From positions 1 through 20,182 of the IMG/VR virus record IMGVR_UViG_3300025310_000175: a stretch of 20,182 bases of DNA; one strand, 5' to 3'. Of the stretch, positions 1 to 4,897 are shown piece by piece. The notes beneath the pieces were generated by a model. It made no database searches and was not told the origin of the DNA. It saw only the letters and a program-made list of their open reading frames with translations. The DNA is from a virus. A program made the translations under genes and the position numbers. Positions within the stretch are counted from its first letter, which is position 1. The number at the start of each line of letters is the position of its first letter.

Positions 1-531
1 CCAGCGCGTTCCCATGAAGTAGACGTAGGCCTTGTCGGTGAGGGCGGGCGTGGGCTTACCGATGAGAAGTTCGTCGAGCGTCGCGGCGTCGCGATCGTGG
101 AGCGAGAATCCGAAGCTGCCGGGAGTGTAGTCTCCTGACATTACTGCCGCGTGCTGCATCAGCGGGACTTCGTAGATGTCGCCTGCTCCAGTGCTGACGG
201 TCAGCTTGTCCCAGCCGACAGAGGCGTAACGCATGCAGTCCGGACGCACGTTGCCCTCCTCGCCGTTGACCGGCAGGATCTCCATGTCGTACTGGAGGGT
301 CAGCCCGGAGAGGTCGGTTACCGGGAGCGGCTTCAGGCGCAGGTGATTGAAGTAGTCGTACGCCGAGAAGAGCTGGACGTTGGCGAAGTCCTCGGCCGCC
401 TGGAAGATGCCCGAGATCTGGAAGCTAGTCTCGGTGGCGTCGTGGAGCGTGGTGGTCGCCGCGCGGCCGGAGAAGCCCTGAAGCTGTAAGGTGTGGCGGG
501 GATCGAAGATCTGAAGTGACAAGGTGGCCAT
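1..531 (-). CDS. Tail-associated protein, 5' part only (runs off left edge)
   Basis: An open frame starts at ATG 529-531 and stays open for 177 codons to base 1 (visible product MATLSLQIFDPRHTLQLQGF onward, ending at GTRW), so the 3' end lies outside the window. The protein is rich in beta-prone and polar residues, with no signal peptide or membrane segment. I do not recognise a family. Its place downstream of the tail-tip gene and on the same strand suggests a fibre, receptor-binding or other distal tail component, and this is inference. No strong Shine-Dalgarno is seen before the start (the preceding bases read CCCTTCTTGG). It is separated from the rest of the late operon by the NYN gene and by a terminator-like hairpin at 1128-1178, so it may need its own promoter or read-through. 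Confidence 0.7.
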   Translation of the reverse strand, partial: MATLSLQIFDPRHTLQLQGFSGRAATTTLHDATETSFQISGIFQAAEDFANVQLFSAYDYFNHLRLKPLPVTDLSGLTLQYDMEILPVNGEEGNVRPDCMRYASVGWDKLTVSTGAGDIYEVPLMQHAAVMSGDYTPGSFGFSLHDRDAATLDELLIGKPTPALTDKAYVYFMGTRW

Positions 532-603
532 CCAAGAAGGGTTCCGCGTAGCGTCTTTGTGACGCGATGGGGGCTCGATTCGTGCGTAGTATCCTTACTA
601 TCG
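532..603. promoter_or_regulatory. Divergent intergenic region with a small inverted repeat before the NYN gene
   Basis: These 72 bases separate the start of the left-edge tail gene (minus) from the NYN gene (plus). Bases 587-591 TAGTA and 596-600 TACTA form a perfect 5-bp inverted repeat with a 4-base spacer, ending three bases before the NYN ATG. TAGTAT at 587-592 matches 4 of 6 bases of a sigma70-type -10 box, and a start 7-8 bases downstream would give an almost leaderless transcript. No purine-rich Shine-Dalgarno precedes the ATG, which fits leaderless translation. No convincing -35 box is seen at normal spacing (TTGTGA at 557-562 is 24 bases away). The repeat is short enough to be chance, so an operator role is only a suggestion. 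Confidence 0.3.
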
Positions 604-1137
604 ATGCCCAATTTCCTGTACGTCGACAATTCGAATGTCTGGATCGAGGGAATGCACGTTAGTGCGGTCGCCCGCGGCCTGGCACCCAGCATTTGGGACG
701 CCCTACAGCACAAGATCTGTGATTACGATTGGAAAATCGATTTTGGGCGTCTTTACGAGTTCGCCGGAGGCGATCCTTCCGGCTGCGCGATGCTTTACGG
801 ATCTCGACCACCCGCGAATGATTCCCTTTGGGCGGTAGCGAAAGCGAAGGGCTTCGAAGTTGTCGTACATGATCGAAACGCCGCAAATCGAGAGAAAAAG
901 ATCGACACAACCATTGCCCGAGATATCATGCGAGACTCCTTCCAGAGGATGAAACCAGGGGACACCGTCACATTGGTAGCGGGCGACAGTGACTATGTTC
1001 CAGTTGCCGAAGATCTCACCGCTCGTGGACTAGGGTTCGAGGTGGTGTTCTGGAACCACGCTGCACGGGAACTGAAGGATGTTGCTACCAAGTTTGTCTC
1101 CCTTGATCCTTATCTGGAGCACCTCAGGAAAAAGTAG
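604..1137 (+). CDS. NYN-domain (LabA/DUF88-like) predicted ribonuclease, phage cargo gene
   Basis: The 177-residue product is essentially one NYN (PIN-like) domain. Seen in the sequence: an N-terminal strand ending in D8 (FLYVDNSNVW), a central KIDTTIARD segment with D101 and D107, and the hallmark VTLVAGDSDYVPV with D128 and D130, followed by a strand and helix. In the NYN/PIN fold these acidic residues bind metal for RNA cleavage. The family acts on RNA, but the substrate here is unknown. ATG 604 is chosen because the domain begins there; a GTG at 559 would add 15 residues of unrelated sequence. The gene runs against all neighbours, and G+C is lower (29 of 60 bases at 601-660 and 28 of 60 at 841-900, versus 36 of 60 at 1201-1260). 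That points to independent acquisition as a moron. It could serve superinfection exclusion, prophage maintenance or RNA turnover; none is shown. Confidence 0.88.
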   Translation: MPNFLYVDNSNVWIEGMHVSAVARGLAPSIWDALQHKICDYDWKIDFGRLYEFAGGDPSGCAMLYGSRPPANDSLWAVAKAKGFEVVVHDRNAANREKKIDTTIARDIMRDSFQRMKPGDTVTLVAGDSDYVPVAEDLTARGLGFEVVFWNHAARELKDVATKFVSLDPYLEHLRKK

Positions 1138-1178
1138 GGTCAGATCACGTCTGAATCACAACCGTGATGTCTGACCCT
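1128..1178 (-). terminator. Hairpin terminator shared by convergent genes, REP-like
   Basis: AGGGTCAGA (1136-1144) pairs perfectly with TCTGACCCT (1170-1178). The inner TCAC (1145-1148) pairs with GTGA (1164-1167) across a 2-base bulge. Read on the minus strand, the stem is followed after ACT by TTTTT (complement of 1129-1133 AAAAA, allowing one base either way), as in a Rho-independent terminator for the tail-tip transcript. The hairpin contains or abuts both stop codons: TAG 1135-1137 of the NYN gene and TGA (complement of 1145-1147) of the tail-tip gene. On the plus strand the stem is preceded by GTAG (1134-1137), a tetranucleotide typical at the foot of REP palindromes handled by RAYT transposases. 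No RAYT gene is present, so the REP reading is tentative. Confidence 0.6.
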
Positions 1179-4100
1179 GGATCAGGCGAGGCGACGGCCA
1201 GAATGTCGAATGCCAAATCGTCGCCCTCGTTGAGCACCGGAGTCGGCCAGATGGTTGGCCGGATGCGCTCGCCGGCGGCGTGGTCCTTGGTCACGATGGC
1301 GTCAAACGTTTGATTCTCCGGATCGACACTGATCACGCGCACGTACTCCTCGTTCGCGCCGCCGGGATCGAGGAAGACGAAGCCGCCGGCCACGAGGCCG
1401 AGCCGGTTCGCGCCATAGGAGGCCGTCTGCAAGGTCTGCGGATCGGGCCCGGCAGTCACCGCCGAGATCAGCACCAGGCCGTAGTCGGCGTATGGAAGCC
1501 GGCGCGTGGCGGGAAGCCCCAAGCCCTCGTTGTTCACCAGAAAGTCGTAGGTGGTCTTGTAGGCGTCCGGCAACGCCTGCGCGATGCCCATGTACTCGAG
1601 CGGTTCCCATGTTGCGCCGTCGTCGCGGCTGATCTTGACGAGGAACGCCGACTGCCCGTCCGTCGTGCCCTGCTGAAGGTAGCCGTAGACGCAGCGGATC
1701 GATGCGGCATCCTGAACCTTCATCGGGATGACGACGTTCTCCTGGACGGTGAGCGGGCCCGGCACCTGAAAGGTATAGGCGCCGCCGTTGCAGGTGCGAA
1801 GGCCCGGCATGTAGGGCTCGTTGTGCCGCGAGAGGGGGAAGACGGTGAATGGCCCGTAGCCGAAATGATTGGCCACACCAGCCAGCGCCGCCACGATGCA
1901 GGCGCTCGGCAGCTTCGCCTCAATCCTCGCGGGCAGGTCCGGCGTGCGGAAGAATCCCTTGCGGACGCTGAAGGTGAACGTCTTCTGATCGAGCTTGTAG
2001 AAGCGGATGCCCGCGAGATGCGCGCAGCGCAGGGTGCCGAAGGTCGCCTGGCCCTCGGGTACGCCCGGGTAGGTGCGTCGCAGGTGAAACTCGCCGCTCG
2101 GCACGACGTCGCCGGGCGCGCCGGGGCCGGTGATCTGAGTGCATTCATAGGATCGCCGGCCAGGGTTCGCAGGGTCGGCCGACTCATCGTTGAAGACGAC
2201 GAAGTCGCCCACCCGGAAGACTCGTTGCGTATCGGGATTGACCGTGCAAACAACGGTGACTGGGTCGGTTGTGGCATCGATGGCGGTGTCGAGGGACGCC
2301 CAGAGATCGGTGGTCAGTTCGTCCACGTAGTAGAGCGCCAGCGTGATCTCGTGCGCGCCGACGATGTTGGCGTTGCCCGAGGCATCGGGTGCAACCGTCA
2401 TGTCGTCGATGGCAAACGTGCCGTAATCACCCAGGCGAGGAACACCGTTCAGCACGCCGGGGACACCCGTGTCGATGAGCACTTCCTCGGTGGGCGGCTC
2501 CGGCACGACGTCGGCGGGCTTCGGGCCGGCGACCAGGTCGTACATCGAGTCCGTAGTCGTGCGGCCCTGGATGTCAATCGAGTAATCGCGGTTGAGCCGC
2601 CACCCGGTCACACGGAACTCGCCCTGCCCGCCGGGCATGTCGGGATGGGTCATCGAGCACACCATGCCGGGTTCCGTGTTGAGCGCAAGCACGGTCGTGC
2701 GGAAACTCATCTGGCGCGCCCTTTTCCATTCATCCAACGTGATGCCGCCCAATTCCTCGCGCAGCCGCACGGTGATGATGCGCGCCGCTTGCGACTTCGA
2801 CGCCGTGCCGGAGAGATTCACCGTCGATTTCAGGAACAGCGGACCCGCGCCGCCCGCAATCAGCGTGGCGTAGTCGATGTCGTAGAGCGAGATCGAGTTG
2901 GCGACAAAGTCGAAATCCTCGTCCGCGAAATTGGCGGTTAGGTGGTTGAACGAGGGCTTGAGCGGCGCCAGTTGCAGACTGCGAAACAGGATGTTGCCTT
3001 CGGTAAAGGCCTCGACGGCCGAGGAGTTCACGCGGACGCCGAGCTTGAGCTTGCCGTTCGAGAACGTGTAGTAGCCCAGGCAATTGATGAGGACTTCCTG
3101 GAGCCAGTCGCGCAACGGCTTCTCTTCCTGGAGCACGCCGCGGAACTTGAACTGCGTCTCTGTGCCGGTGCCAACCAACTTTGAAACCTGCTCGTCGCAG
3201 ATCGCCGCCGCTGCGATGGCCGCATCGACATCAAACAGCGTCTCTGCGAATTCGAGTTGCTCTGTGGTGGCGCCCGCGCCCAGACGCAGGCCTCGCGCGC
3301 GCAGCAGCATGTTGACCGCGATCCAAATGGGGTTGGTCAGCGGAGGCCCGTGGACACGCACGCCGGGCGAAGTCCACACCCAGCCGCCGAGACCTTGGGC
3401 GACGACCGCCTCCATGGCGTGCTCGCTCAGGCGCGAAAGCTGCAAGCCTTTGGCGTCGGAGCGCCGGATCATGAGGAACGCCGTGCCGGCCGCGCGCTCC
3501 GGTCCAGCGTCGGTGTCCATGCCGAAGGTGATTGGGTTCGGATCAGCGCCCAGACTGGTCATCAGTCCGAGCGAGCCCGGATAGCCGTGATGGTACTGCC
3601 CGTCGAGCTTATGGCCCGCACCAAATGCGCCCAGGGGACCTTCGCCGACGATACCCACCGCGGCGTAGAAGTCGCTCTCGTCGCGGCCCGAAGCGATCTT
3701 GCAGTTCACGGGCATCGCCGAATCGGTGTAGATCTCGGGCAGGACCTGATCGTAGATCGAGTCGGCGACCAGTGAGACGGAGGTGAGCGTCGAGCGGCCG
3801 AAGCCCCAGACGCCGGTCGAGTTGTCCTTGATGCGCACGCCCTGCGGCTTGGCCATGATGCCCCCGTAGTATTCGTTCATGCCGTGGGCGCGGCAGCCGT
3901 TGGGCGTGTCGAAGCCCTTGTCGCAGCGCGTGGGATCGGCATCGGGAAAGTTGATCAGATCGAGCGCGCCTTGCGAAGCGAACGGGCAGGCCGTGGAATT
4001 GAACGGCTTCCAGCAGGTGCGGGAGATCTTGCGCCTGGGATAGGGCAGGTTCAGTTCGTAGAGGCCGTCGGCGGCGGTGACGCGGAACTCGGGGCCCGCA

Positions 4101-4897
4101 TCGCAGGTCCAGTTGACGATGTTTCCCTTCCAGAGGTCGAGCTTGATGCCGGTCCCGACGTGGAAGAGGCTGAAGGCGATCTCGGCCCGGAAGAGGTCGA
4201 CGTCGTTCGAGAGGTCACGCATCACGCGGTCGGCGTTGCCGAAGGTGAACTGAGCCTCGTCTGACTCATTGCCAATGGACTGCGAGATGCCCTCGAATTC
4301 GACGAGGCGCGCCTGGTAAAGCTGGCCGCCGATCGTGCAGCGCCGGTCGGAGACATAGATCGCCGGGTAGCCTTGCTGGAGAGGCTGGATGCGAATGAGC
4401 GGGATGATCTCTTGGACCTGCGAGAGCAGTGCGGTCTGTAGGGCGGCAGGCGGGAAGCGGTTGACGGTCTGGTTCAGCGGATACGACGGGCTGGTCTGGG
4501 GAATCTCGATGAGCGTGACGCCGAGCGAGCACGCCCAGTCGGCGACCATCTCCCAGGAGAGCGGCTCGTTGGCGAAACGGCAGATGACCGGCGCAGTCCC
4601 GAGACCGTCGTCGTTGGGAGCGTTGTAAGTGAAAGCACCGTACGGCCCGTACTTCGACTCCCAGAAATTGCGCAGGGCGATGCGATCTGCGTCGCGCAGC
4701 CAATGCTTGCGGATGGTGAAGCGCCGTGCGCCGGCACCGAGGAGGAAGCGTTGCTCCATTTTTGAATTGCCGCTGCCGAACTGATGCACCACGACTTCAT
4801 GGTCGCGGCGCACCTCGAGCGGGTAGTCCGGCGTGAGCGGAAACACGCCCGACGGCGCGATCTCGGGCACTGGAATGTTGCCGAGGTAATCAGGCAC
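1145..4897 (-). CDS. Large tail-tip/hub protein with gpM-, gpL- and gpJ-like parts
   Basis: The 1250-residue protein starts at GTG 4897 with GAGGA upstream at long spacing. Residues about 20-135 resemble the gpM-type minor tail domain (FTIRK...LRNFWESKYGPYGAFTYN...VICRFANEP). Residues about 160-345 resemble lambda gpL, including four cysteines C295, C304, C325 and C335 with spacing 9-21-10, close to the [4Fe-4S]-binding cysteines of gpL. Residues about 350-800 look like the gpJ-type hub (the stretch around LRDWLQEVLINCLGYYTF and the later NRDYSIDIQGRTT). The remaining 450 residues are beta-rich without a recognised fold. Such a protein would cap the tail tube, hold the baseplate together and carry host-contact domains. 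Separate L, K and I genes are absent from the window, which agrees with a fusion. The stop lies inside the 1128-1178 hairpin. Domain borders are estimated by eye. Confidence 0.85.
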   Translation of the reverse strand: MPDYLGNIPVPEIAPSGVFPLTPDYPLEVRRDHEVVVHQFGSGNSKMEQRFLLGAGARRFTIRKHWLRDADRIALRNFWESKYGPYGAFTYNAPNDDGLGTAPVICRFANEPLSWEMVADWACSLGVTLIEIPQTSPSYPLNQTVNRFPPAALQTALLSQVQEIIPLIRIQPLQQGYPAIYVSDRRCTIGGQLYQARLVEFEGISQSIGNESDEAQFTFGNADRVMRDLSNDVDLFRAEIAFSLFHVGTGIKLDLWKGNIVNWTCDAGPEFRVTAADGLYELNLPYPRRKISRTCWKPFNSTACPFASQGALDLINFPDADPTRCDKGFDTPNGCRAHGMNEYYGGIMAKPQGVRIKDNSTGVWGFGRSTLTSVSLVADSIYDQVLPEIYTDSAMPVNCKIASGRDESDFYAAVGIVGEGPLGAFGAGHKLDGQYHHGYPGSLGLMTSLGADPNPITFGMDTDAGPERAAGTAFLMIRRSDAKGLQLSRLSEHAMEAVVAQGLGGWVWTSPGVRVHGPPLTNPIWIAVNMLLRARGLRLGAGATTEQLEFAETLFDVDAAIAAAAICDEQVSKLVGTGTETQFKFRGVLQEEKPLRDWLQEVLINCLGYYTFSNGKLKLGVRVNSSAVEAFTEGNILFRSLQLAPLKPSFNHLTANFADEDFDFVANSISLYDIDYATLIAGGAGPLFLKSTVNLSGTASKSQAARIITVRLREELGGITLDEWKRARQMSFRTTVLALNTEPGMVCSMTHPDMPGGQGEFRVTGWRLNRDYSIDIQGRTTTDSMYDLVAGPKPADVVPEPPTEEVLIDTGVPGVLNGVPRLGDYGTFAIDDMTVAPDASGNANIVGAHEITLALYYVDELTTDLWASLDTAIDATTDPVTVVCTVNPDTQRVFRVGDFVVFNDESADPANPGRRSYECTQITGPGAPGDVVPSGEFHLRRTYPGVPEGQATFGTLRCAHLAGIRFYKLDQKTFTFSVRKGFFRTPDLPARIEAKLPSACIVAALAGVANHFGYGPFTVFPLSRHNEPYMPGLRTCNGGAYTFQVPGPLTVQENVVIPMKVQDAASIRCVYGYLQQGTTDGQSAFLVKISRDDGATWEPLEYMGIAQALPDAYKTTYDFLVNNEGLGLPATRRLPYADYGLVLISAVTAGPDPQTLQTASYGANRLGLVAGGFVFLDPGGANEEYVRVISVDPENQTFDAIVTKDHAAGERIRPTIWPTPVLNEGDDLAFDILAVASPDPGSDITVVIQT

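Follow-up and report, generated by a model that had tools for sequence, protein, structure and literature searches.

Hotspots of defence genes in temperate phages are already known (PMC9122126). In S. aureus, prophages encode Tha, a non-specific HEPN RNase that is activated by minor tail proteins. Its gene is part of a 'noncontiguous operon' with an antisense layout, which strikes a balance between immunity and autoimmunity, and Tha is turned off on induction (PMC11087260). NYN-domain RNases have been studied in another setting. The CRISPR-associated NYN protein of B. fragilis is a Mn-dependent ssRNase in which the first Asp, D13, is required; its authors compared it with 2QIP and MARF1 and proposed that it trims crRNA rather than acting directly in defence (PMC11346440).

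Here we describe a single NYN gene in a 20,182-bp virus record (hereafter the window, i.e. the whole stretch of DNA analyzed). Its site resembles the known hotspots in being small (0.4-3.8 kb here, about 1-5 kb there) and in that the conserved phage genes on either side enclose a rapidly changing set of defence genes, here predicted ones. It differs in belonging to another phage clade, in lying within the tail operon, in carrying mostly antisense cargo and in having metal-resistance genes mixed in. Like Tha, the NYN protein is encoded by a single probable prophage RNase gene antisense to lytic transcription, which fits an 'on in lysogen, off in lysis' arrangement. Unlike Tha, it has an NYN rather than a HEPN domain and adjoins tail genes rather than the cI region, and no overlapping inhibitor gene was identified at the locus. 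It shares a three-Asp core with the B. fragilis protein (D13, D118 and D143 there; D8, D101 and D128 here), whereas the latter belongs to a type III CRISPR locus and no CRISPR-Cas context was found around the present gene, whose neighbours in the phage tail operon are virion genes. By profile or fold, the nearest solved structures are VPA0982 (2QIP), which is uncharacterized, and the NYN domains of MARF1 (5YAA and 6FDL), a eukaryotic multidomain protein. In the open-licence literature, we found no report of these two tail-operon hotspots, of their antisense bias or of single-gene NYN RNases as phage-borne defence.

An intact NYN gene between two virion genes

The window carries a minus-strand virion module, which includes a lambda-family portal, a capsid gene and a Phage_tube_2 tail tube. 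The module further holds an ORF of 1070 aa, about the length of a tape measure, one of 744 aa that weakly matches tail fibres, a gene of 1250 aa and the beginning of another of 1279 aa. The features around the NYN gene are as follows.

1-531, minus strand: first 177 codons of the 1279-aa gene, the next gene in the operon (complete in L107:4135-7974)
532-1144: cargo slot of 613 bp between two virion-module genes, 53.8% G+C, with the NYN gene as its sole gene
551-600, plus strand: putative promoter or leader of the NYN gene, with inverted repeats GCGTC/GACGC (551-565) and TAGTA/TACTA (587-600) just upstream of the ATG
604-1137, plus strand: NYN-domain gene (177 aa), start ATG 604, predicted PIN-like RNase fold
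1136-1178: inverted repeat with 9-bp perfect arms, AGGGTCAGA/TCTGACCCT, longer with a bulge, covering the convergent 3′ ends of the NYN gene and the tail gene
1145-4897, minus strand: 1250-aa virion gene of the tail-tip region, with more than 80 relatives in IMG/VR; the slot starts at its stop codon

The earlier note had placed the gene on the plus strand between two minus-strand tail genes. Strands and order were confirmed, and the flanks are called tail genes by their position beside the portal, capsid, tube and the 1070-aa and 744-aa ORFs, not by family matches of their own. The 1250-aa gene had no match in Pfam, in INPHARED or in seven NYN-bearing bacterial genomes, and the 1279-aa gene matches a PHROG of unknown function.

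We confirmed that 604-1137 encodes a complete NYN-fold protein. Its product matched the Pfam NYN family (PF01936) at 4e-16 and scored 60.3 bits, well above the cut-off of 24.2; the match spanned positions 7-145 of the 145 in the profile. The PADLOC NYN model was matched at 5e-8. A longer protein of 192 aa would result from an in-frame GTG at 559; the starts of the homologues correspond to 604. In an alignment of 16 homologues, D8, N11, D101, D128 and D130 were invariant. The four Asp residues among them, which had been reported as intact before, are the predicted catalytic residues. An AlphaFold2 model built on this alignment (pLDDT 83, pTM 0.81), a check suggested in the earlier note, contained the NYN core with its PIN-like, Rossmann-type fold. 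The top Foldseek matches in the PDB were MARF1 NYN domains (E 6e-6 to 4e-5), the best of them at E 6e-6 with a TM score of 0.59 by query and 0.69 by target, and a profile search found VPA0982 (PDB 2QIP) at 1.7e-5. The protein is predicted to be a metal-dependent RNase. Among four pairs of homologues, dN was 0.04-0.29 and dS was saturated, which indicates purifying selection on the family.

The base composition of the gene is foreign to the phage. The contrast in G+C described earlier (about 48% against about 60% nearby) is real, although the figures were off: the gene has 53.6% and the remaining window 64.8%. Its GC3 is 59.6%, compared with 75-88% in the phage genes of the window. Only 0.3% of all 534-nt windows of the stretch were equally AT-rich, and to the right of the slot the lowest G+C of any such window was 59.6%. 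A second contig of 42,765 bp matched all 20,182 bases with 99.99% identity and had the NYN gene in the identical place, which speaks against misassembly. Just past its last virion gene, this near-identical contig has a plus-strand gene for a 727-aa heavy-metal P-type ATPase (L107:1-2184), 57% identical to copies on Methylocystis plasmids, with a second plus-strand ORF beside it (L107:2150-4201). They may be either more metal-resistance cargo or host flank.

Signals around the gene were also surveyed. The inverted repeat at 1136-1178 had a fold z of about -2.0, and its minus-strand copy is followed by TACTTTTT; it could be a terminator of tail transcription ahead of the NYN gene. We had also considered this repeat as a general integration scar and dropped the idea, because it was not found at other filled sites. 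Upstream of the ATG, no clear Shine-Dalgarno sequence was seen, and the stretch 551-600 is a putative promoter or leader region. A promoter consensus scan found nothing upstream of the gene; its sole match was inside it, at 902-929, and the scan gave no terminator.

The junction is a hotspot of exchangeable cargo

Following the earlier proposal to compare related phages with conserved flanks, we examined the 47 relatives in which both flanking genes were in view. The NYN gene was present in only one of them (L009, a near-identical phage) and is thus not fixed in the clade. The junction measured 3-5 bp in eight relatives and 11 bp in one, and these nine sites were virtually empty. Three more were short, at 165-190 bp, and the other 35 were filled, at 403-3795 bp. 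At one empty site (L051), the next gene begins with its ATG immediately after the stop codon TAG. In all 35 filled loci, the slot had a lower G+C content than its flanks. The cargo was identified using Pfam and PADLOC.

L036: CBASS, with a SMODS-type cyclase and Cap15
L023: GmrSD enzyme
L072: CAP12/Pycsar-type TIR protein
L069: AIPR/AbiU
L057: Lit-like U49 protease
L059: Schlafen AlbA_2
L048: Mrr
L018: HNH
L027: PD-(D/E)XK with Mutator transposase
L031: viperin-like radical SAM protein
L021 and L016: BrnT/BrnA (BrnT matched in L021, CopG-type partner in L016; layout shared by L025, L028, L033, L037 and L050)
L066: HicA/HicB (same layout in L015)
L010:7923-9096: MerR/MerC/thioredoxin mercury cassette (identical layout in L073)
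L032 and L056: HMA proteins (heavy-metal)
L030: ParA

Most of the recognizable cargo was defence or toxin-antitoxin genes, and the MerR/MerC/thioredoxin cassette, the HMA proteins and ParA were non-defence occupants. Other slots held proteins with no match in Pfam or, where tested, in PADLOC: those of L012, L017 and L044 (275 aa), L022 and L024 (161 aa), L034 (351 aa) and L068 (399 aa). These are candidates for unknown defence genes.

The cargo tended to lie antisense to the operon. An initial tally by hand gave 22 against 4. When each Pfam-supported type was counted once, 13 of 16 were antisense (13 against 3, P = 0.02). Taking the longest ORF of each slot instead gave 17 against 8 (P = 0.11). 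This result is weaker owing to the BrnTA loci, where the ORF selected was on the opposite strand; the Pfam-supported tally is thus preferred. The GmrSD, AIPR and TIR cargo runs in the same direction as the tail operon, so antisense placement is a bias and not a rule.

A tyrosine integrase was found in five of 19 sampled relatives, so the clade is temperate at least in part. None was found in the window phage itself, whose 20,182-bp record may be incomplete.

One fixed junction in the late tail operon thus serves as a hotspot for accessory cargo, with the NYN gene as one of its alleles. The earlier note had called this gene a moron, and this view is strongly supported by its absence in every other relative that shows both flanks, the empty sites of 3-11 bp, the alternative cargo, the foreign composition and the NYN fold. 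That note overlooked two points: the junction is a hotspot whose cargo abounds in defence systems, and the NYN family recurs on the counter-strand in several unrelated phages.

The NYN family in other phages and a second hotspot

A profile-guided scan for relatives of the NYN protein gave 22 viral contigs or loci on about ten unrelated backbones. In all 22, the NYN gene was AT-richer than its own contig. According to flank calls that are ORF-based and approximate, both flanking genes run opposite to it in most backbones (L003, L004/L120/L124, L005, L008, L112-L116 and L121); L122 and L123 are exceptions.

One of these settings is a second hotspot (L125-L204), a slot between a 209-aa and a 159-aa gene in the tail region of a very large phage family, many contigs of which have IMG identifiers resembling those of isolate genomes. 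Its flanks are not similar to those in the window, so the two hotspots are independent. Among the 71 loci listed, the slot was never empty (452-2530 bp), held an NYN gene in three and always had a lower G+C content than its surroundings (55.7% against 68.3%; 71 of 71). Of the 42 non-redundant cases among the loci listed, 35 had cargo that runs antisense to its flanks (P = 1.5e-5). The cargo comprised HEPN, Schlafen, RES and DUF3800 proteins, and also cation-efflux or metal-efflux, chromate-transport, redox and metabolic genes; many occupants had no Pfam match at all. A MerA-like reductase and a CsoR-type repressor with a cation-efflux protein were seen in L151 and L189.

NYN homologues in bacterial chromosomes and plasmids

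Bacterial chromosomes and plasmids that lack the phage of the window also carry homologues of the NYN gene. The nearest plasmid homologue, with 62% identity, is on Manganitrophus plasmids and lies 33 bp behind genes for an N6-methylase and XamI restriction, with helicase and ATPase genes and a SIR2 or integrase gene on its other side. The family thus recurs in a plasmid defence island as well as in unrelated phages. In an Ideonella MAG, the homologue adjoins a gene for a TIR-domain protein, and inspection by eye revealed a tRNA-like 3′ end directly upstream. Other contexts were not defence-like, namely a Roseomonas plasmid and a Limnohabitans MAG in which the neighbours are a P-type ATPase and a GMC oxidoreductase. 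No neighbour gene was constant among the homologues. The clade is rare and patchy, with one other match in 368 gammaproteobacterial genomes. Several bacterial homologues (L090, L099, L100, L102 and L103) look truncated or frameshifted, which suggests frequent decay.

Possible function of the NYN gene

Taken as a whole, the explanation that we consider probable is that the gene is a swappable hotspot allele encoding a stand-alone RNase, which would be made in the lysogen as a single-gene anti-phage effector and silenced by antisense transcription in lysis. The phage would belong to a temperate clade with a lambda-type portal, with the slot in its late (tail) operon, and the cargo would presumably be exchanged by recombination within the conserved flanking genes. 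The product, a predicted metal-dependent enzyme of the NYN/PIN fold, would most likely be expressed in the lysogen, with transcription from a promoter of its own, and would cut RNA upon infection by another phage. Abortive infection or superinfection exclusion, which the earlier note had offered as speculation, is the most probable reading of its role. Late transcription of the resident phage, running antisense through the gene, may silence it during lytic growth, as the precedent of Tha suggests, and the phage itself would be spared. No partner or sensor gene is present within the 613-bp slot.

Hotspot membership alone is no proof of defence, because metal-resistance, ParA and metabolic genes share the two hotspots. 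An RNase that tunes host RNA, for example in a stress or metal response, might benefit the lysogen without blocking any phage. Cellular NYN proteins include housekeeping RNases, and mercury, other metal-resistance and metabolic cargo in both hotspots would suit such a conversion gene. We nevertheless regard it as unlikely, considering that the recognizable cargo of the first hotspot is mostly defence or toxin-antitoxin and that several NYN homologues adjoin restriction, SIR2 or TIR genes.

Phages also encode RNA-degrading or host-takeover factors, and the NYN gene is phage-borne in many backbones. It might then act during infection, as a lytic-phase helper or a counter-defence RNase that degrades host or defence RNA. 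Such a gene would hardly be expected antisense to the late operon, missing from nearly all close relatives and present on bacterial chromosomes and plasmids without the phage, which makes this role improbable.

An orphan toxin or stabilization (addiction) gene of the PIN/VapC type would agree with the PIN-like fold and with the BrnT/BrnA and HicA/HicB pairs that relatives carry at the first hotspot. However, the 613-bp slot leaves no room for a partner ORF of antitoxin size, and the homologues lack a constant neighbour; we think it very doubtful. An assembly artefact or decayed host fragment, which the foreign base composition might suggest, is hardly credible, being contradicted by the same junction in the second, 42.8-kb contig, the intact ORF and active site and the strong purifying selection in the family.

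Three further roles were ruled out. A structural or late-operon role conflicts with the counter-strand position and with the lack of the gene in all the other relatives in which both flanks were in view; a toxin-antitoxin pair (VapBC-like) conflicts with the single-gene slot, which has no cognate antitoxin adjacent; and a housekeeping phage gene conflicts with the lack of any match in 50,697 phage records.

Returning to the RNase effector made in the lysogen, a broader version of this explanation can be put forward tentatively, as a possibility that we hold at somewhat below even chances. The NYN genes would form an undescribed family of single-gene RNase defences that moves between plasmids, chromosomes and temperate phages of unrelated kinds and settles preferentially antisense in late tail operons. 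By analogy with Tha, they would be kept off by the late transcription of the resident phage and triggered by a superinfecting one, possibly through a tail protein, and antisense cargo might be a general design for self-immunity.

Two unrelated phage families thus have cargo hotspots in their tail regions, with dozens of cargoes and a measurable antisense bias against the late operon. These hotspots are a source of candidate defence genes, as many occupants match no known family and some consist of one gene for less than 300 aa. Among them, the NYN family is a simple candidate that needs just one gene and for which the choice of active-site mutants is obvious, and its antisense placement makes it possible to test directly how defence genes of prophages spare their own phage.
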